This document shows positions 1 to 8,026 of a DNA stretch of 24,534 nt, in pieces. A program made the translations under genes and the position numbers. Origin of the DNA: a virus. The notes beneath the pieces are model-generated. The model was not told the origin of the DNA, made no database searches, and saw only the letters and a list, made by a program, of their open reading frames with translations. How positions within the stretch are numbered: the first letter of the stretch is position 1; each line of letters begins with the position of its first letter. The stretch lies in IMG/VR virus record IMGVR_UViG_3300025616_000041, positions 1-24,534 of that record. One strand, given 5' to 3'.

Positions 1-246
1 ACATAACGTATGGTGCTTTGCGAAGGCGGGGCATCGAAGCACAAATGTTGAATTAACCACAAAAGATAATTAGATGCAGAAAGTTGAAAATATAGACGAA
101 ACCCCCGCTTTTGCAAAGCGGTCGAGGCTAAAAATAGGCAGGGATAACGAGCGATACCCTTTCAGCCTACACAAATGATAAAACGAAGCTCACAGGCTTG
201 ATTAAGCACATACGCCCTGCTTATTTTTAGCCTTTGTTATAGGGCG
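1..246 (+). repeat. attC-like element 1, compound two-arm hairpin
   Basis: The element opens with ATAAC (3-7) and closes with GTTATAGGGCG (236-246). Between them are two separate stems. Stem A pairs 15-21 with 113-119 (GCTTTGC/GCAAAGC) and 26-31 with 103-108 (GCGGGG/CCCCGC). Stem B pairs 126-136 with 222-232 (GGCTAAAAATA/TATTTTTAGCC) and 138-143 with 215-220 (GCAGGG/CCCTGC). The first 16 bases closely match the start of element 2 (ATAACGTATGGTGCT). The double arm suggests fusion of two elements. The left end may be cut by the window edge. A 34-codon frame at 74-178 is inside this structure and is not called as a gene. Confidence 0.55.
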
Positions 247-261
247 TTTATTTTAATCAAA

Positions 262-591
262 ATGATAACTGAAAAAGAATATTTAGAAGCTGTTAAAATT
301 GTGAAAGAATACCACCAGCAAATAAATTCAATTATTAATGAAATGCCAAAATTGAATGTAAAATCATCTAAAAAAGTCAAATGTATAAATACTCATGCAG
401 GTGGACATGATTTATACTTTTTAACATTTGGAAAAGAGTATGACGTTGTTCATAATCCATATAAAAGAGCATCTAATAGAAGGGATTGGAATAACGAAAG
501 AAATTTTGGCGTTATTGACGATAATGGAAAAATGAGATATTTTCTATACGATAATCCAAGTCATGTATGGGAGTTTTTAAATGCCCTATAA
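262..591 (+). CDS. small hypothetical protein, cassette gene 1
   Basis: This gene encodes 109 residues and I do not recognise a named family. The N-terminus (about 1-30) is a predicted amphipathic helix rich in Lys and Glu. The remainder has the pattern KCIN...LTFGKEYDV...FGVIDDNGKMRYF, resembling small SH3-like beta-barrel proteins found in phages and mobile elements (an 'LT.GK.Y.V ... .DDNG' pattern); this is a weak analogy. There is no signal peptide or membrane segment. The gene fills almost the whole space between attC-like elements 1 and 2, and its TAA stop (589-591) is embedded in the closing box GCCCTATAAC, a tight fit typical of gene cassettes. The ATG at 262 follows an A-rich stretch (AATCAAA) without a Shine-Dalgarno sequence, usual in Bacteroidota. 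No promoter is seen in front of it. Confidence 0.7.
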   Translation: MITEKEYLEAVKIVKEYHQQINSIINEMPKLNVKSSKKVKCINTHAGGHDLYFLTFGKEYDVVHNPYKRASNRRDWNNERNFGVIDDNGKMRYFLYDNPSHVWEFLNAL

Positions 592-718
592 CGTATGGTG
601 CTATGAGAAGTAGCGGAATACGAAGCGATGTCCTGTCAATTTGCGACAATGATAATGCGAGTACGAACCTACGAATACCTACACAACCGCTATTTTTTAT
701 AGCACGTGTTATACCCCG
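583..718 (+). repeat. attC-like element 2
   Basis: This is an imperfect hairpin of about 136 nt. The outer boxes are CCCTATAAC (584-592) and GTTATACCCC (708-717), sharing six complementary bases within the element. Inner arms pair 598-604 with 699-705 (GTGCTAT/ATAGCAC) and 611-616 with 687-692 (TAGCGG/CCGCTA), with unequal spacers between them (6 bases against 6 T) and a large loop. Outer box, short unpaired spacer and inner arm match the general layout of integron attC sites, and the length is in the range of long ones. The T-rich run after 718 could also help termination. It occupies the first part of the 540-base gene-free stretch 592-1131. Confidence 0.55.
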
Positions 719-820
719 TTTTTCATTTTGCTCTTATCTCATTTAATTATCTCATTTTCAAATACTAATATTTAGAATAATTATAAATAGATTAAATCTA
801 TAAAAATAAGTGATTAAATA

Positions 821-852
821 TTTGCACAATTAAAAAACCCGTTGTATATTTG
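821..852 (+). promoter_or_regulatory. Bacteroidota-type promoter
   Basis: TTTG at 821-824 is followed after 20 bases by TATATTTG at 845-852. This matches the Bacteroidota sigma consensus TTTG / TAnnTTTG with normal spacing. Transcription should start near 858, giving an untranslated leader of about 270 nt before the gene at 1132. The bases between 719 and 820 are very AT-rich and show nothing else recognisable. Confidence 0.75.
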
Positions 853-857
853 CAGAG

Positions 858-1131
858 TAATTAAATGATAAAGTTCTTTGAAAATATAAAAAAGGGTGGC
901 AAGCCAGACCGCACCCATCACAAATGAAAAATAGTAGTTTGTGGTTAAAGACAAAGCTGGGGGTAGCATAGATACCTTACGAGTAATAATCAATGCCGTT
1001 GAAAGGTCAGTTAGTAACTGAATACGTGTTGGCACAGAGTAACAAGTCACTCTTGTATGGTGCAGGGATTAAGAATGCCTGTCGAAAGTTACCTGAAAGA
1101 CTTTAATTTTAAACTTTAAAAAAAAATAAAA
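858..1131 (+). ncRNA. structured 5' leader RNA, candidate regulatory RNA
   Basis: Between the promoter and the gene at 1132 there is a non-coding stretch packed with short hairpins: 894-898/912-916 (GGGTG/CACCC), 919-924/938-943 (CACAAA/TTTGTG), 962-965/973-976 (GGTA/TACC), 977-986 (TTAC-GA-GTAA), 1008-1020 (CAGTTA-G-TAACTG, perfect), 1036-1040/1049-1053 (AGAGT/ACTCT) and 1085-1089/1100-1104 (AAAGT/ACTTT). The sixth hairpin has an exclusive alternative, 1042-1046/1052-1056 (ACAAG/CTTGT), as expected of a switching element. It is less AT-rich than the flanking DNA. I do not recognise it as a known RNA family. It could be a riboswitch-like leader or a separate small RNA. Individual stems are short and pairing was judged by eye. 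Confidence 0.4.
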
Positions 1132-1494
1132 ATGGAAACTTTAAAAATACAAACCAAAACCGTTGGGCAAAACGGGTTCTTTGATTTAAGAAATCAAATG
1201 AGCGAATTTGTAGAAAGCAAATTCGCTCTACTGTACGAAGGTGCAGTTCGGTTAGGATGTGCAATATCATCCGACTATTACGCTCCCGAAAGAATACAAA
1301 TCGGGAATACGAGGCTGCACGCTTCGCAAAGTTTGAAATATGCCGATGGGCATAAATATTCAGATGATGCAGCCCCTACTGAAAGTCAGCTCCGCCAAGC
1401 GGTTATTGACATTCAGAAGTTAATTGATGCTGCTTCTGAAGTAATACCTGCCCCTTTCACCCTTAATATCATTGAGAATGAAAAGCAAGGTTAA
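1132..1494 (+). CDS. hypothetical protein, cassette gene 2a
   Basis: This gene encodes 120 residues of no family I recognise. The protein is soluble, without signal peptide or membrane segment. Residues about 12-75 (FFDLRNQMSEFVESKF through RLHASQSL) look mixed alpha/beta, and 85-110 form a likely helix (ESQLRQAVIDIQKLIDAASEV). It is the first gene behind the promoter at 821-852 and the structured leader, so it is the likely regulated product. The start ATG at 1132 follows a long A-rich run (TTTAAAAAAAAATAAAA), a common Bacteroidota initiation context. It overlaps the next small gene by 17 bases, so the two are probably translated together. Confidence 0.7.
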   Translation: METLKIQTKTVGQNGFFDLRNQMSEFVESKFALLYEGAVRLGCAISSDYYAPERIQIGNTRLHASQSLKYADGHKYSDDAAPTESQLRQAVIDIQKLIDAASEVIPAPFTLNIIENEKQG

Positions 1495-1645
1495 GAAGTC
1501 CAACGCTGGCAGAAAACCTGTACCCGATAAGAAGGTACAGGTTTCTCTGTATGTGCCAAACTCTCAAATTGAAAAATTAGGCGGTTTAGATGCGTTCAAA
1601 GAGAAAATTATCGCATATGTAGAACGATCGTGTAAGGCTTCTTAA
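1478..1645 (+). CDS. small ribbon-helix-helix-like protein, cassette gene 2b
   Basis: The frame encodes 55 residues starting MKSKVKKSNAGRKPVPDKK and continuing with VQVSLYVPNSQIEKLGG and a C-terminal helix. A basic GRKP(x)PDKK tail, an alternating beta strand (VQVSLYVP) and a following helix are the usual design of short ribbon-helix-helix DNA-binding proteins and related phage or mobilisation-element regulators. It overlaps the upstream gene by 17 bases in another frame, indicating coupling. The stop codon lies six bases before the box GGTATAAC that closes this cassette unit. It could autoregulate the promoter at 821-852, which is inference. An unrelated small basic protein remains possible. 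Confidence 0.6.
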   Translation: MKSKVKKSNAGRKPVPDKKVQVSLYVPNSQIEKLGGLDAFKEKIIAYVERSCKAS

Positions 1646-1648
1646 AAT

Positions 1649-1700
1649 GTGGTATAACGTGTTGCAGCTATGCTGCTGAATGGGGATTTTACCCACAAAA
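1649..1700 (+). repeat. attC-like half site without a closing box
   Basis: GGTATAAC at 1651-1658 is the reverse complement of the box opening this unit (708-715), with nine of ten bases matching in the longer comparison. It is followed by two small hairpins: GCAGC-TAT-GCTGC at about 1664-1676, then TGGG and CCCA around 1681-1694. No GTT-type closing box follows before the next gene, so this junction looks truncated or rearranged compared with elements 2 and 3. Confidence 0.4.
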
Positions 1701-1722
1701 TTAACAACGAAAAACAAAACTT

Positions 1723-2256
1723 ATGAATACTGATAATTTATCCAACGAGAACGAAAACCCCATTTTGCGTATAGGTGCGGTTAGCACCAGTTTATCTTAT
1801 CTCGATATTGAATTAGCAATTGCAAAACACTACAATACAAGGCAACATATAATAGTTCCTAATTGCTACATTAATTTCGGAACAAGTGCAGACCATGAAT
1901 GCGATTTGATTATAATTAAACGCTCTGGATATGCCGAAGAGATTGAAATAAAAATGAGCAAGAGTGATTTAAAGGCTGATTTTAAAAAGAAACATGGACA
2001 TATTGATGAAAGATTACAGCACTTATATTATGCAATGCCTCTTGAATTATACGAACAATGCAAAGATTTAATACCTGAACATGCAGGGATTTTCACAATT
2101 ACAAAGTATGAAGATAGATGTTTTGCAAGATGCGTAAAATCAGCACCTAAAAAGCAATGCAGAAAACTAACAACCGATGAACAATTAAATATCGCTCGAT
2201 TGGGAGTTATGCGAATATGGAATTTAAAACAAAAGTATCAACGATGCGCTGTTTAA
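1723..2256 (+). CDS. MmcB-like PD-(D/E)XK superfamily protein
   Basis: The 177-residue product resembles MmcB-type DNA-repair-related proteins, which have a restriction-endonuclease-like fold. The core is LSYLDIELAIAKHY (about 24-37), then IVPN, the acidic pair HEC-D61, the strand with E75-I-K77 (EEIEIK) and SKSDLKADFKKKH. This gives a PD-(D/E)XK pattern of D61, E75 and K77. In the family these residues could bind metal and cleave DNA, but the reaction is not established here. The C-terminal part (about 100-177) is basic, with Cys residues at 132, 137 and 146, possibly for nucleic acid binding. The gene lies between a half site and attC-like element 3, and follows an A-rich start context. In a phage such a protein may act in DNA repair, recombination or counter-defence; this is inference. 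Confidence 0.7.
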   Translation: MNTDNLSNENENPILRIGAVSTSLSYLDIELAIAKHYNTRQHIIVPNCYINFGTSADHECDLIIIKRSGYAEEIEIKMSKSDLKADFKKKHGHIDERLQHLYYAMPLELYEQCKDLIPEHAGIFTITKYEDRCFARCVKSAPKKQCRKLTTDEQLNIARLGVMRIWNLKQKYQRCAV

Positions 2257-2259
2257 ATT

Positions 2260-2356
2260 GGTGCTAACGGTTTGTGTATGAGCAGTGGCACTTGTACGCA
2301 CTTTCAAATTAGTACACCGCTTATGTGCCATTGCTTATACACGGTGTTAGTAGCCG
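2260..2356 (+). repeat. attC-like element 3
   Basis: This is a clean imperfect hairpin of 97 nt. The outer boxes are GGTGCTAAC (2260-2268) and GTTAGTAGCC (2346-2355), sharing five complementary bases. The arms 2274-2291 and 2325-2342 (GTGTATGAGCAGTGGCAC against GTGCCATTGCTTATACAC) pair over 18 positions, counting two G-T pairs. An inner GTAC/GTAC match (2294-2297, 2312-2315) extends the stem. The closing box is followed by CGTTTTTT, so the structure could double as a transcription terminator for the MmcB-like gene. Confidence 0.6.
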
Positions 2357-2384
2357 TTTTTTATTCATCTTTTAATCAATTTTT

Positions 2385-3008
2385 ATGATAGTATTGATAA
2401 CACACGAAGAAAGCCAAACAGTAATGGAAGCGTTTTTAAATGCCGGACATGATGCTTATAGTTGCGATTTATTGCCAGCAAGTGGAAAGCACACTGAAAG
2501 ACATTTACAAATGGATTGTTTTAAGGCAATAGAACTTATTAAACCTGATTTTTTAGGGATGCACCCAGAATGTACAAGGCTAACAGTTGCAGCAAATAAA
2601 TATTATAAACCTGAATATGCTAGACGATTTCCAAATATAAACGAACAAAGAGCCGAAGCAGTTGACCACTTTTTGAAGTGTGCCGAAGCATTATATGAAA
2701 TTGGCAAAGGTTATATTGAAAACCCGATTGGAATAATGAGCCGGATTTATAAAAAGCCAACTCAAATAATACAACCTTACCAATTTGGACACACTGAACG
2801 AAAAAGCACTTGTTTATGGATTGCAGGTTTACCAAAATTACAACCTACAAACATTGTTGAACCTGACATTATAGTGCATAAAAGCGGTAGAACAGACAGT
2901 CGATTGCATTATGAAACATTCAAATTACCAAAAGAAGAGCGAAGGAAAGCCCGCTCAAAAACCTTTACCGGAATTGCAGAAGCGATGGCGTTGCAGTGGG
3001 GTTCTTAA
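2385..3008 (+). CDS. DNA cytosine methyltransferase-like protein
   Basis: The 207-residue product belongs to the short phage proteins usually annotated as cytosine methyltransferase-like. The N-terminus (ITHEESQTVMEAFLNAGHDAYSCDLL, in part) is the Rossmann-type cofactor region with the D at 28. HPECTRLT (60-67) corresponds to the PPC motif that carries the catalytic cysteine, here Cys63, but the second proline is a glutamate. IENPIGIMSRIY (about 111-122) corresponds to the ENV/ENP motif. The C-terminus has RKSTCLWI and a basic tail. The family is much shorter than standard C5 methyltransferases and lacks an obvious target-recognition domain, so activity is uncertain. The likely role is modification of phage DNA against restriction. 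The gene is flanked by exact complementary boxes (2346-2355 and 3012-3021), marking a cassette unit. Confidence 0.75.
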   Translation: MIVLITHEESQTVMEAFLNAGHDAYSCDLLPASGKHTERHLQMDCFKAIELIKPDFLGMHPECTRLTVAANKYYKPEYARRFPNINEQRAEAVDHFLKCAEALYEIGKGYIENPIGIMSRIYKKPTQIIQPYQFGHTERKSTCLWIAGLPKLQPTNIVEPDIIVHKSGRTDSRLHYETFKLPKEERRKARSKTFTGIAEAMALQWGS

Positions 3009-3011
3009 AAT

Positions 3012-3075
3012 GGCTACTAACTAATCGCTACACGCAATGCTCATAGCAACCCATATTGGAATGTAACACGCAATT
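3012..3075 (+). repeat. closing cassette box with degenerate remainder
   Basis: GGCTACTAAC (3012-3021) is the exact reverse complement of the box opening the methyltransferase unit (2346-2355). The following bases (GCTACACGC, ATGCTCATAGC and TAACACGC at about 3028-3071) do not form a convincing long hairpin and no GTT-type closing box is seen. This appears to be the right end of the cassette block. Confidence 0.4.
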
Positions 3076-3085
3076 AACAATAAAC

Positions 3086-3092
3086 AAGGAGG
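3086..3092 (+). promoter_or_regulatory. strong Shine-Dalgarno sequence
   Basis: AAGGAGG lies eight bases before the ATG at 3100. A full Shine-Dalgarno sequence is rare in this window, where most starts have only an A-rich context. It decides the start of the small membrane protein and implies strong translation. Confidence 0.7.
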
Positions 3093-3099
3093 AAACAAA

Positions 3100-3261
3100 A
3101 TGGACTATTTAATTGACCTGACTATTTTAACCCTATGGATCACCGGAATAGTGATCATACTACTTTTAATCGCTTTCTTTGCGCTTAGAGAACCCGATCA
3201 ACCATCAGAATGGAATGAGATCGACGGTCACGATTACACCGATCAAGAAGAATGGCGTTAA
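3100..3261 (+). CDS. small single-pass membrane protein
   Basis: The frame encodes 53 residues. Residues 3-28 (YLIDLTILTLWITGIVIILL and following) form one strongly hydrophobic membrane segment. The remaining 25 residues are acidic and hydrophilic (REPDQPSEWNEIDGHDYTDQ). There is no cleavage site, so it is probably an N-in or N-out anchored peptide of the inner membrane. The start is supported by a perfect Shine-Dalgarno sequence at 3086-3092. It is the first gene after the cassette block. Small one-helix proteins like this can be spanins, holin partners or superinfection-exclusion peptides in phages, but nothing in the sequence identifies which. Confidence 0.65.
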   Translation: MDYLIDLTILTLWITGIVIILLLIAFFALREPDQPSEWNEIDGHDYTDQEEWR

Positions 3262-3781: not shown

Positions 3782-4171
3782 ATGGCGGATGACGGACATA
3801 TAAGAAACCCGAAAGGAAATGGAGGCTTTGGCACTAATCCACAAAACAGAGCTGATGGTCGATGGACCAAAGAAACATCTATCTCGTACTTTCAAAATCT
3901 ATTAATACGAATGGAAGTTGAAGAGTTCAAAAACTTCATACCTCAGACTATTGCCCAACAATTAGCTTATGAATCTGTGAAAAACTCAGCAGTTGAATTA
4001 GTCGAAAGAAAAGAACTACAAGATAGAACAGAAGGCAAGGCACAAGCAAAAATAGATGTAACAACTCAAGGCGAATCTATCCAGTCTAAAATAGACCTTA
4101 CTCAATACTCAGATGATGAATTACGAACTATTGCTGAACTCCAATGTAAAGGCAGAACTGGCGAAGCGTAA
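3782..4171 (+). CDS. putative small terminase subunit
   Basis: The product has 129 residues from the ATG at 3782; the frame extends upstream to 3701, but the extra 27 residues run through the promoter and are probably not translated. The N-terminus (NPKGNGGFGTNPQNRADGRWTK, in part) resembles the Gly/Asn/Pro-rich start of DUF5681-type phage proteins that commonly precede large terminases. The middle (SYFQNLLIRMEVEEFKNF) and C-terminus are helical, with a Gln/Lys-rich linker. The role inferred is recognition of phage DNA and regulation of the packaging motor. The main support is position: its 3' end overlaps the large terminase by 59 bases. No helix-turn-helix is obvious by eye. Confidence 0.55.
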   Translation: MADDGHIRNPKGNGGFGTNPQNRADGRWTKETSISYFQNLLIRMEVEEFKNFIPQTIAQQLAYESVKNSAVELVERKELQDRTEGKAQAKIDVTTQGESIQSKIDLTQYSDDELRTIAELQCKGRTGEA

Positions 4172-5687
4172 TTATCTCGACTTTGTCCGGTATGTAAAAT
4201 TAGATTATGAGGCTAATTGGCATCATATATTACTTTGTAGATACTTGCAATTGTTTGTAGAAGGGAAGATAAAAAGACTGATGGTATTTATGCCTCCTCA
4301 ACACGGCAAGAGTGAATTAGTGAGTAGAAATCTACCAGCTTATATCTTAGGTCGAAATCCTAAATCAAAAATAGTATTAGCATCTTATAGTAGTGATTTA
4401 TCAAGCACATTTAATCGTGATTGTCAAAGAATTATTGATAGCGAACAATATAAAGATGTGTTTCCCGAAACATACTTAAATAGTTCCAATGTAGTTACAA
4501 TATCGGGGTTATGGTTGCGTAATAGTGATAAGTTTGAAACAGTAGGACATGGGGGATTTTTAAAAACGGTCGGAGTGGGGGGATCATTAACAGGTACACC
4601 TGCTGATTTCGCTATTATAGATGATCCGGTAAAAGATTCAATTGAAGCAATGTCAGGAACTTATCAATACCGCAATTGGAATTGGTATAATGATGTTTTA
4701 TATACTAGGATTCACAACAATACAGGTATATTAATAACACAGACAAGATGGGATATTAATGATTTATCAGGACTATTACTTAAAAAAATGCAAGATCAAA
4801 GTGGGGAGCAATGGGTAATCTTAACACTTCCTGCAATTAAATTAAATAACGATGACAAAGAAGACCCAAGACAAATTGGGGAGGCACTATGGAGTAATAG
4901 ACATGATTTGGCAAAGCTAAATATGGTTAGGTCGCAAAGCATAAGAACATTTCAGAGTTTATATCAGCAAGACCCCAAACCGACAATGGCAGGGGGTGAA
5001 TTTTACAAGCAATTTAACATTGCCCGACAAGTGAAAGAATTGGTATATAATATTGATCTTCCATTGCATTTTACATTCGACTTTAATGTTAATCCATATA
5101 TAACCTGTTGTGTATGGCAGATATTAGGGAAAAAGGCAAAGCAAATAGCAGAAATATGTACAAAGAGTCCCGTCAATACAACGAAAGGTATATGCAATGA
5201 AATTAAACGACTTTATCAAGGGCATTCAGCAGGTGTTTTTATATATGGAGACCCGGCAGGGCAGCACGAAGACACAAGAACAGAAAAGGGGGCAAATGAT
5301 TACACTATTATTCGCAAAGAATTAGAAATATATAGACCTAATATGAGAGTCCAAAGTAAAGCTCCATCTGTTGTGATGAGAGCTAATTTTATAAATACTA
5401 TATTTCAATCGGGGTACAATGGCATAGATATCGAAATTGATAATAAATGTGAAAATACTTTAAATGATTATTTATATCTCAAAGAGGATTCAGACGGAAC
5501 TAAGAAGAAAGAAAAAGGCAAAGACCCAAGCACCGGAATCAGTTTTGAAAAGTATGGGCATACAAGTGATGCTAATGATTATTTAATCTGTACTTTATTT
5601 GCACAGGATTATATAGAATATCAGCGAGGTGGAAGAGTGATGATTCCAACGCTTGGGAAAAATATATCAAAAAATGCGTATAATTAA
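4113..5687 (+). CDS. terL: terminase large subunit
   Basis: The 524-residue protein is the ATP-driven DNA packaging motor and headful or cos nuclease. The ATPase domain has Walker A MPPQHGKS (60-67), Walker B FAIIDDP (166-172, with the catalytic acidic pair) and a coupling motif TQTRWD (209-214). The C-terminal RNase H-like nuclease shows the three acidic positions: D323 in FTFDFNVNP, D380 in IYGDPAG and D486/D489 in HTSDANDY. Length fits the family. It acts with the small subunit and the portal at the procapsid vertex. The start overlaps the preceding gene by 59 bases; two consecutive ATG codons are possible (4113 or 4116). About 50 bases of AT-rich spacer follow before the next gene. Confidence 0.95.
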   Translation: MMNYELLLNSNVKAELAKRNYLDFVRYVKLDYEANWHHILLCRYLQLFVEGKIKRLMVFMPPQHGKSELVSRNLPAYILGRNPKSKIVLASYSSDLSSTFNRDCQRIIDSEQYKDVFPETYLNSSNVVTISGLWLRNSDKFETVGHGGFLKTVGVGGSLTGTPADFAIIDDPVKDSIEAMSGTYQYRNWNWYNDVLYTRIHNNTGILITQTRWDINDLSGLLLKKMQDQSGEQWVILTLPAIKLNNDDKEDPRQIGEALWSNRHDLAKLNMVRSQSIRTFQSLYQQDPKPTMAGGEFYKQFNIARQVKELVYNIDLPLHFTFDFNVNPYITCCVWQILGKKAKQIAEICTKSPVNTTKGICNEIKRLYQGHSAGVFIYGDPAGQHEDTRTEKGANDYTIIRKELEIYRPNMRVQSKAPSVVMRANFINTIFQSGYNGIDIEIDNKCENTLNDYLYLKEDSDGTKKKEKGKDPSTGISFEKYGHTSDANDYLICTLFAQDYIEYQRGGRVMIPTLGKNISKNAYN

Positions 5688-5735
5688 TTGCATATGATAA
5701 AATAATATTAATTTTACATTAAAATACGCCTACTT

Positions 5736-6680
5736 ATGGATTCATTTCTGTTTATCGGAGACTACACGAAACAAATACAAGCCGATAATTTACAGGCTAT
5801 TATTGGCAGTAATCAAATCATCTTAGATGGAATTCAACTTGCAGCAGTTGAAGAATGCCGATCCTACTTAAAGCAAAAATACGAAGTAAGCGAATCACTT
5901 AGCGCAATCACACAACACGTTACAACAAAGACTTACAACGCAGGCCAGTCTGTATATCTTAATGCTTCAGCGTATGATGCAACAGCGTCTTATCTATTAG
6001 GTGCTGAAACTCTGTATCTTGGCAATGTCTATCGTTGCACAACAGCGATAGTGACTCACGAAGCATGGAACGCACTTCATTGGTCTTTGCTTGGTGTACA
6101 ATACACGATCTATTATGCTCTTTATCCTCAATCAATATTTGATTATCAAAAGATTTACGCAGTCGGGGACAAAGTCTTATGGAGCAATAAAGTCTATACA
6201 GCACTATTAATGACTCAGATACTTGATCATGAGGCAATGCTTCAGATCGGACAATCTAATGTTGATCAGATAGTAAATATCTTCCCTGATGATATCGTAA
6301 AGGGTGTTCAGTATTGGGGTGCAGGGGTCTCTTATGTAGTGCCAACAACAACATTAATCACTAACACTACTTATTGGACATTGGGAGATAATAGAGATCA
6401 AAAGCTCTTAATGACTTGTATAGACATAGCTCTTTATCATGTTCATTGCAGAATCTCACCTCGCAATATACCAGAGTTAAGAGTGCATCGTTATATGGGT
6501 GTACATGAAGATCGAATCAATATTGGCGGTCATGTTGTATATCCGACTTACTCAGCGTTAGGATGGTTACAGGCATCGGCTCTTGGTGAAGATATAACTC
6601 CACAAATGGCACTTATACAGCCTAAATCAGGAAGAAGGATTCGATTTGGTGGCAACATGAAGAACGAAAATAATTATTGA
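5736..6680 (+). CDS. gp36-like (DUF1320) protein with carbohydrate-binding-like inserts
   Basis: The ends of this 314-residue protein match the Mu gp36/DUF1320 family: N-terminal helices (IQLAAVEECRSYLKQKYEV, about 33-51) and a C-terminal block (DIALYHVHCRISPRNIPELR and following). The family is thought to act in head-tail joining. The middle is much longer than in Mu. It contains Trp/Tyr-rich segments of the type 'G..V...N.VY.A....W..L' (about 66-120 and 130-160) that resemble carbohydrate-binding modules of families 5/12. This could create surface-exposed, glycan-binding decorations at the neck; that is inference. It follows the terminase after about 50 bases and ends two bases before the portal gene. 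Confidence 0.75.
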   Translation: MDSFLFIGDYTKQIQADNLQAIIGSNQIILDGIQLAAVEECRSYLKQKYEVSESLSAITQHVTTKTYNAGQSVYLNASAYDATASYLLGAETLYLGNVYRCTTAIVTHEAWNALHWSLLGVQYTIYYALYPQSIFDYQKIYAVGDKVLWSNKVYTALLMTQILDHEAMLQIGQSNVDQIVNIFPDDIVKGVQYWGAGVSYVVPTTTLITNTTYWTLGDNRDQKLLMTCIDIALYHVHCRISPRNIPELRVHRYMGVHEDRINIGGHVVYPTYSALGWLQASALGEDITPQMALIQPKSGRRIRFGGNMKNENNY

Positions 6681-6682
6681 TT

Positions 6683-8026
6683 ATGGAACAATCAAATATA
6701 TCACAATGGCTTCAGGCTATCAACCCATTTGGACGAACAGAAACAAGACCCGAAAAGGTTGAAAAGAATCTTGCAGGATTTATCGCTCCCGTACAACTTC
6801 AGCGACTTAAACAAGATGTTCAGTCATGGCGTGAGGTATTGACAGAAGCCGAGAATGTCTGGTTTCCACATCGTGTGAAAGCACAGCGATTATTTATCGA
6901 CACTATTAATAACGGTCATGTATTCGCTTGTATGGAGCGTAGAAAAGATTTAACTCTTCTTCGTAAGTGGGATTTTGTGAATGCTAAAGGTGATATTGAC
7001 GAGAAAGTAACTGCACTATTCTTAGATACAGTAAACGGGCAATCACAGAATAAGGAGTGGTTTAATAAGTTCTTAAATTATTCGATTGATTCAATTTACT
7101 TTGGTTATTCGCTCATCTCGCTTGGTGACATAATCGAGAATCAGTTCCCGGAGATTGAGGTTATTAAACGATGGAACATATCACCCGATAGATTGAACGT
7201 TACTAACTTCACTTATTCGATTAGTGGGGCGATGTTCCTTGAAGAACCTTATAAGAATTGGCACGTTTACGTTAAAACATATAACGATATTGGAGCATCA
7301 AAGGCAGGGTATGGACTACTGTATAAAGTAGCTCTTTATGAGATATTTCTTCGTAATTTATTAGGCTTTAACGGTGATTTTGTTGAACTCTTTGCACAAC
7401 CGTACAGACTTGGAAAGACAAGTAAGAGCAATGAATCAGAGAGAGCTGAACTTGCAAACGCTATTCAGATGATGGGGTCTTCAGGTTGGGCAATGATCGA
7501 CCCTGAAGATGAGATCACATTTCTTGAATCGGCATTAGGTGGCACAGGATATAAAGGATATGACAATCTTGAGCAACGACTCGAAAAGAAGATCAGTAAG
7601 ATCATTCTTGGTCATGCCGATGCTATTGATTCAATAGCTGGTAAACTTGGTAATTCGGGCGAGAAATCACCAGCAGAACGATCGTTAGAAGACAAACAAA
7701 CTAAGGACGGATCATTTATTGCCAATGTAGTTAATAATGGACTGATAGTTAATATGAGAGCGTTAGGATTCAAGATTCCTGATGATATAAGAGCATTGTT
7801 AAAGAACGATGCTGAGATGATGGAGATTAATAACGCTGTAATTGCTCAGGCTGTCGAGATGAACAAAGCAGGTTTGATCATGGATAGTGCTTATTTCACC
7901 AAACAAACAGGCATTCCTGTTGCTGTCGCTGTTGCTCCAGTAATAGCACAATCACCAATAACATCATCTATTAAGAGTAAACTTGAGATGATCTACAACA
8001 AGACATCTTGTAATCATTCGCACTGA
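6683..8026 (+). CDS. portal protein, Mu gp29-like (DUF935)
   Basis: The 447-residue product resembles the DUF935 portal proteins of Mu-like phages. Typical segments are RVKAQRLFIDTINNGHVFA and MERRKDLTLLRKW in the N-terminal part, the wing with NWHVYVK and FLRNLLGFNGDFVELF, and near 300-340 the helical GxxN-S-G-K-S region (KIILGHADAID...KLGNSGEKSPAERSLEDK, in part). It forms the dodecameric ring through which DNA enters and leaves the capsid. The ATG at 6683, two bases after the upstream stop, is preferred over a TTG at 6677. The 3' end overlaps the next ATG by one base (TGATG). Position directly before an F-like gene matches the Mu gp29-gp30 order. Confidence 0.85.
   Translation: MEQSNISQWLQAINPFGRTETRPEKVEKNLAGFIAPVQLQRLKQDVQSWREVLTEAENVWFPHRVKAQRLFIDTINNGHVFACMERRKDLTLLRKWDFVNAKGDIDEKVTALFLDTVNGQSQNKEWFNKFLNYSIDSIYFGYSLISLGDIIENQFPEIEVIKRWNISPDRLNVTNFTYSISGAMFLEEPYKNWHVYVKTYNDIGASKAGYGLLYKVALYEIFLRNLLGFNGDFVELFAQPYRLGKTSKSNESERAELANAIQMMGSSGWAMIDPEDEITFLESALGGTGYKGYDNLEQRLEKKISKIILGHADAIDSIAGKLGNSGEKSPAERSLEDKQTKDGSFIANVVNNGLIVNMRALGFKIPDDIRALLKNDAEMMEINNAVIAQAVEMNKAGLIMDSAYFTKQTGIPVAVAVAPVIAQSPITSSIKSKLEMIYNKTSCNHSH

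Follow-up and report, generated by a model that had tools for sequence, protein, structure and literature searches.

Array layout

The first 3021 bases of IMG/VR virus record IMGVR_UViG_3300025616_000041 hold a chain of gene and hairpin units that resembles the cassette array of an integron. The window, meaning the whole stretch of 24,534 nucleotides (nt) that was analyzed (positions 1 to 24,534 of the record), is a 24.5-kb linear virus record whose + strand carries the structural and packaging genes of a phage, including the TerL gene (Table 1). Four contiguous units were found ahead of these genes. Each unit opens with GTTA plus six bases and closes with the reverse complement of those ten nucleotides, with 1 mismatch in unit 2, and neighboring units are separated by hairpin regions of 77-121 nt. 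In two of the box pairs the complementarity runs on to about 15 nt at 93%. None of 2000 dinucleotide-model shuffles of positions 1-3100 and none of 200 whole-window shuffles produced a four-unit chain with gaps the size of an attC site, and the remainder of the real window contains box chains no longer than 2. The array runs off the contig end on its left. On its right an attC site is absent after the last unit, and 3021/3022 is the junction between array and backbone.

A preliminary description, made from the letters of the window, had listed three such units. All three of its box pairs are present with the complementarity it reported (10/10, 9/10 and 10/10). A further unit, 1780-2268, had been missed between its second and third, and therefore all four units are contiguous. 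The claim that genes fit tightly between the boxes stood except for unit 3, whose open reading frame (ORF) begins at 1723, within the hairpin that precedes its box. A start codon inside an attC site was also seen in a second locus (L039, unit 1665-2439), the N-terminus (...IGAVS...) being encoded by hairpin plus box. N-terminal fusions could arise by cassette exchange where the start codon lies in the attC.

Hairpins as attC sites

On folding and scanning, the hairpins labeled attC1 and attC3 in Table 1 have the textbook form of attC sites. A stem scanner with fixed rules for boxes and spacers picked out these two sites in the window, and ten shuffled windows gave none. A covariance model, R1, was then aligned from 25 sites of related phages with the window excluded; like the other attC models used, it was built in this analysis and is distinct from the IntegronFinder/HattCI model. 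The R1 training alignment has invariant TAACG and TGTTA, with 95.6% of cells paired, and one position is a G.T pair in 24 of the 25 sites, a feature that, unlike stem pairing, did not enter site selection. Applied to the window in a default run, which is the basis of the result, R1 matched 586-714 (E=6.7e-10) and 2262-2352 (E=3.8e-9) on the gene-sense strand only, with the next match at E=0.48; with filters off, attC3 alone was well reported. This is the covariance-model check that the preliminary description had proposed, and its outcome agrees with an integron-like array.

The long imperfect hairpins that were said to border every unit fared less uniformly. Paired L boxes and asymmetric spacers are clear in attC1 and attC3. 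The imperfect attC2 was recognized only through its homologue in locus L114 (3931-4058), which scores 38.9 bits (E=1.9e-5). R1 did not detect attC0 in the window, and this region lacks the paired boxes and spacers; from its folding and a reading of its sequence, it looks like two decayed attC hairpins fused. When whole genomes were searched with the phage model, few candidates per genome were scored, and the resulting counts are lower bounds. As a separate observation, a near-identical hairpin of 59-62 nt (AACGGTTTGGCTATGCGCAGTGTCCCGAAGGGCATTGCGTATAGGTGTTGTT) that matches the phage attC model recurs in several Bacteroidota genomes (L193, L194, L196, L187/L253) and could represent either a dispersed repeat or an attC standing alone.

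Gain, loss and movement of cassettes

Comparison with related loci places the limits of the exchanged segments at the boxes. Window positions 1652-2271, spanning unit 3 and its upstream hairpin, are 90% identical to L114, and the match stops within ~7 nt of TAAC on both sides. Unit 4 has ~90% nucleotide identity to L031 and L032 exactly from 2344/2345 to 3021, with neither flanking hairpin in common. Both of these loci come from IMG/VR, from which their viral nature is assumed, and the conclusions are independent of both. L032 is a 120-kb contig in which repeated transposase-like fragments flank cassettes (~5400-5900 and 7640-7950), and it may be partly chromosomal. For unit 2, homology to L117 begins at the unit's first box. 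The backbone at 3018-3100 is also homologous to L117 from the box onward (73.8%), and because L117 has this backbone after a different last cassette, the right end of the window array is a junction to backbone. In nine loci one and the same backbone junction, TAAC followed by TACAATATTACATG, stands behind at least five different last cassettes.

Arrays about ten units long are present in cultured virulent Flavobacterium phages (Lillamyvirus, Muminvirus, Hattifnattvirus and others; PMC7077304). Among 13 such phages, all 18 of the 18 clean insertions or deletions of at least 100 bp are whole cassettes bounded by the TAAC box. One 439-bp cassette lies at the backbone junction, here called the anchor, in lillamy9-3 and is internal in sniff9-1. 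Cassettes distal to the anchor tend to be common to relatives and those proximal to it differ, which is the pattern expected if new cassettes enter at the anchor. These alignments establish that gain, loss and movement affect entire cassettes, that the cut falls at AA^C of the TAAC box and that the array abuts a fixed point of the backbone.

The preliminary description had proposed to look for precise gain or loss between the G and TT of the GTT boxes. The boxes do mark the breakpoints, in the Flavobacterium phages as well as in L114, L031/L032 and L117, but the position has to be amended to AA^C of the downstream-facing box, and the cassette to an upstream attC plus the gene. In the Flavobacterium phage recombinants, too, the shared segment consists of the upstream hairpin and the gene, and the sequence diverges directly after the unit's last box. 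The classical reading, in which a cassette carries its attC downstream, was dropped for this reason.

The recombinase associated with the site family

The preliminary description saw no recombinase. A Pfam search for tyrosine integrases likewise found none in the window, none near the array in 12 relatives and one in the 76-kb record L111, and a search of 25 viral records with arrays yielded no tyrosine recombinase, IntI-like or other. Integron-type recombinases are, however, common in Bacteroidota. Canonical IntI (TIGR02249 over cut-off) is present in 105 of the 395 sampled Bacteroidota genomes, which are in part incomplete assemblies and several of which have long arrays (e.g. L175, L159); this seems commoner than generally stated. 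When IntI loci were searched for the phage hairpins, the arrays there proved to use another attC type: the phage attC family lay beside canonical IntI in 0 of 17 loci, with two weak cases in 20 more (2/37).

Phage-type attC sites in chromosomes led instead to another tyrosine recombinase, named REC here. Two REC proteins score 192 and 199 bits against the IntI model (cut-off 265) and 205.6 and 217.5 bits against XerA (NF040815 recomb_XerA_Arch, the best NCBIfam match; cut-off 220). REC is without the insertion common to IntI1 and Bacteroidota IntI (13/13 aligned), forms its own clade in a small tree of sampled recombinases and was detected at E<=1e-60 in 96 of the 395 Bacteroidota genomes. One genome, G300, contains both IntI and REC. 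Phage-type attC sites are found on the 3' side of REC in 26 of 42 loci, two of which were found through their attC sites so that the set is not an unbiased draw, versus 2 of 37 canonical IntI loci. The phage-trained model gave 16 matches with E<0.01 on REC loci, and 80 of 84 phage-type sites there have one polarity. In most loci the first cassette begins ~50-126 nt past the REC stop codon, often where ATATAAANAA meets GTTRGC, and in three pairs of related REC loci the homology spans this point and ends within ~20 nt beyond it. The integron type proposed in the preliminary description is retained, all three of its proposed checks having turned out in its favor, with the amendment that the attC sites are of a type belonging to some recombinase that is not canonical IntI.

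Palindromes of the type AATACAAAATGCGCATTGCGCATTTTGTATT were also noted right after the REC gene (L197:13980-14070; L237, past the recombinase stop). These could be recombinase binding sites or terminators.

Gene orientation and extrahelical bases

In a classical cassette the crossover lies in R' (PMC2727003). A crossover at AA^C together with a shared upstream hairpin means that the phage attC points opposite to its gene in comparison. Two independent results bear this out. A second model, R2, was built from canonical attC sites adjacent to IntI in Bacteroidota with bottom-strand polarity, and it matches the phage array sites on the gene-sense strand. With gene strands taken from automatic ORF calls, genes lie on the same strand as the model, the opposite strand or mixed strands at 74, 2 and 1 viral sites, versus 5, 71 and 8 sites in REC arrays. 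On this comparison of matched strands, phage attC polarity is reversed relative to the genes versus bacterial arrays of the same attC family. The phage genes run toward the apparent insertion point, and new cassettes join the 3' end of what reads as one operon. A possible benefit is that new genes would be appended at the far end of the early operon and not beside the promoter.

The I2 domain of IntI has been described as the reader of the extrahelical bases of attC, with which it is said to have coevolved (PMC4792948), and strand choice is set mainly by the first extrahelical base (PMC2727003). Sorting of the sites by bulge class (0/+1/-1) gave 52/26/7 for phage sites, 40/8/1 for REC arrays and 7/0/34 for IntI-adjacent sites. 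A single-base bulge is thus present on the expected arm in 34 of 41 IntI-adjacent sites, and bulge-free sites make up 40 of 49 in REC arrays and 52 of 85 in phages, and G.T mismatches are in excess on one strand. The phage and REC-array sites have the same mismatch and bulge signature. The classical extrahelical base, which lies on the R''-L'' arm as defined in PMC2727003, is absent from attC1 and attC3 of the window, and the phage attC family as a whole is mostly bulge-free or has its bulge on the other arm relative to the crossover. An I2-less recombinase and attC sites without the extrahelical base fit each other, as a correlation and not as proof.

Interpretation and alternatives

Positions 1-3021 of the window are probably an integron-type array of at least four cassettes, in a Bacteroidota phage in which no integrase was found, moved in trans by a host recombinase that is likely of the REC type. 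Each mobile cassette consists of the upstream hairpin (attC) and the following gene, up to and including the closing box. Once a cassette is excised as a circle, pairing between its two 10-nt boxes would complete the attC, and a host tyrosine recombinase would act in trans on folded single-stranded phage DNA. REC is the likeliest candidate because the same attC family adjoins REC genes in Bacteroidota chromosomes. Such a system would serve to swap small early genes quickly, among them methyltransferases and a gene for a nuclease-fold protein, probably as a defense against restriction by the host. More broadly, and with moderate confidence, Bacteroidota may hold a second integron-like lineage whose tyrosine recombinase has no I2, whose attI directly follows the stop codon of the recombinase gene and whose attC sites for the most part have no classical extrahelical base; of this lineage virulent phages would carry a recombinase-free, gene-inverted array form growing at the 3' end of the early operon.

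Several observations weigh against this interpretation. All the evidence is comparative, with recombination read from the sequences of relatives. The link between REC and the phages rests on the common site type and on adjacency, REC activity is presumed, and no homologues of the window cassette genes, which would indicate direct traffic, were found in the REC arrays examined. Sixteen of the 42 REC loci are without phage-type sites, several of them at contig ends, and the Fisher value for the association (p ~7e-8) overstates certainty because sites of one array are not independent. The covariation of the R1 alignment (0.804 vs 0.161 shuffled) is in part built in, since the scanner sites were picked partly for stem pairing. 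The anchor is not convincingly attI-like: by weight matrix its likeness to the REC attI ranks 12/450 in the window, 4/135 in L117 and ~106/211 in L036. The methyltransferase unit of the window, L031 and L032 has its gene in common and not its flanking attC sites, so attC bodies are also replaced. Finally, the bulge in Flavobacterium-phage sites is often on the arm adjoining the crossover box, opposite to the classical attC.

The array could instead be an ordinary cluster of attC sites lacking integron-integrases (CALIN) that canonical host IntI moves in trans, the association with REC being secondary. Canonical IntI is a possible trans-acting recombinase given its frequency in the sampled genomes and the presence of both enzymes in G300. 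Moreover, IntI1 recombined attC2 of the Polaribacter phage P12002L, which has the same attC family (Qi et al. 2023, PMC9892861), and REC may therefore be dispensable. This explanation is nevertheless judged unlikely, as the phage attC family lies beside REC far more often than beside IntI and window-type sites are without the bulge found in most IntI-adjacent sites.

Phage mosaicism, already disfavored, would make the hairpins terminator-like short homologies between early genes that serve general recombination. Phages are mosaic, all breakpoints have TAACG(TT) microhomology and attC sites can be weak terminators (PMC9892861), but mosaicism leaves unexplained the 10-nt complementarity from end to end of each gene with a different sequence in every unit, the 18 of 18 breakpoints at the same base, the intact relocation of the 439-bp cassette and the fixed anchor, and is very improbable. 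Least probable of all is a single-strand (HUH/Y1, RAYT-like) transposase moving hairpin-plus-gene units, since a 5' hairpin with insertion after a short motif (TAAC) is a superficial likeness to what is generally known of IS200/IS605-type insertion, while box complementarity that closes a circle and the attC layout are integron features and the same sites adjoin tyrosine recombinases with a fixed first-cassette position.

Relation to known systems

The array of the window and its relatives share several features with classical integrons (class 1 IntI1/attI1/attC and sedentary chromosomal ones), namely G^TTRRRY / RYYYAAC boxes complementary across the gene, a paired hairpin whose spacers are 5-6 nt vs 1-3 nt long and whose terminal structure varies, a crossover that takes place on one strand at AA^C, and insertion at a fixed end. 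They differ in having no IntI, in that most sites are without an extrahelical base on the classical arm, and in the inverted phage genes; REC, which faces its array, is without the IntI-specific insertion. A classical cassette is a gene followed by attC, with genes running away from attI, whereas the phage unit is an attC followed by a gene that runs toward the anchor.

Phage CALINs are already known, 17 having at least 2 attC sites each, including that of the virulent phage P12002L (Qi et al. 2023, PMC9892861). These are likewise integrase-free attC arrays in virulent phages with methyltransferase cargo, and the P12002L sites belong to the present attC family. Those in P12002L were described in 'divergent directions', whereas the genes here are consistently inverted relative to attC, and the present arrays reach about ten cassettes in a cultured phage group, with gain and loss mapped to the base and with sites that match a non-IntI recombinase. 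REC itself is like Xer/XerA-like tyrosine recombinases in core fold and sequence but adjoins cassette arrays, has an attI-like site past its stop codon and forms a separate clade. The integration of CTXphi by host XerCD (PMC4792948) also involves a host recombinase without I2 and a folded site without extrahelical bases; CTXphi, however, integrates itself, whereas here single cassettes move within phage genomes.

In the open-access literature no paper was found that deals with arrays in Flavobacterium phages, with phage cassettes that are consistently inverted or with cassette arrays adjoining a recombinase that has no IntI domain; subscription papers and preprints were outside this search. 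The IntI definition of IntegronFinder requires the IntI-specific domain (PMC9668308), so REC loci would be scored, at best, as clusters of orphan attC sites. An active REC platform would go further than a phage-borne CALIN variant. I2 sets integron integrases apart from other tyrosine recombinases, the origin of the domain and of the extrahelical bases, each in the absence of the other, has been called a chicken-and-egg paradox, and there has been speculation that integrons came from viruses (PMC4792948). If the proposal is true, the REC lineage preserves the pre-I2 state in living organisms. Arrays in which most attC sites have no extrahelical bases, next to an I2-less recombinase, open the question of how domain and bases arose to direct testing. 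The mapped gains and losses of single cassettes in cultured virulent phages show how anti-restriction and other early genes can be reshuffled.

Features of the window

Table 1. Coordinates of the array components and neighboring features in the window
Feature	Position	Strand	Boxes, matches and remarks
attC0, upstream recombination site of cassette 1	9-235	+	Two strong hairpins on folding (~14-120, 125-233)
Cassette 1, box to box	236-592	+	GTTATAGGGC 236-245 / GCCCTATAAC 583-592, complementary 10/10
Cassette 1 gene, 109 amino acids (aa)	262-591	+	phrog_4927 (unknown function)
attC1	593-707	+	TAACG-spacer-stem ... stem-spacer-GTTA; covariance model R1 and stem scanner
Cassette 2, box to box	708-1658	+	GTTATACCCC 708-717 / GTGGTATAAC 1649-1658, complementary 9/10; L117 homologue begins at same box (window 706)
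Cassette 2, first gene, 120 aa	1132-1494	+	No family match
Cassette 2, second gene, 55 aa	1478-1645	+	No family match
attC2	1659-1779	+	Includes start codon (1723) of cassette 3 gene; homologous site in L114
Cassette 3, box to box	1780-2268	+	GTTAGCACCA 1780-1789 / TGGTGCTAAC 2259-2268, complementary 10/10
Cassette 3 gene, 177 aa, MmcB-like	1723-2256	+	phrog_2776, 2e-29; PF06319, 4e-4, under Pfam cut-off
attC3	2269-2345	+	Model R1
Cassette 4, box to box	2346-3021	+	GTTAGTAGCC 2346-2355 / GGCTACTAAC 3012-3021, complementary 10/10; shared with L031, L032
Cassette 4 gene, 207 aa, DNA methyltransferase	2385-3008	+	phrog_757, 3e-57
Anchor (phage backbone where the array grows), perhaps attI-like	3022-3099	+	Homology to L117
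TerL gene	4128-5684	+	phrog_38

Rfam and tRNA searches of the window gave no matches, and none were found among solved structures for the two cassette proteins for which they were sought. Cassette 2 has a long leader (830-1131) with a Bacteroidetes-type promoter-like motif (TTG...TATATTTGC) and a boxA-like GTTCTTTGAAA. The leader is conserved in L117 and is possibly a structured or antitermination leader.

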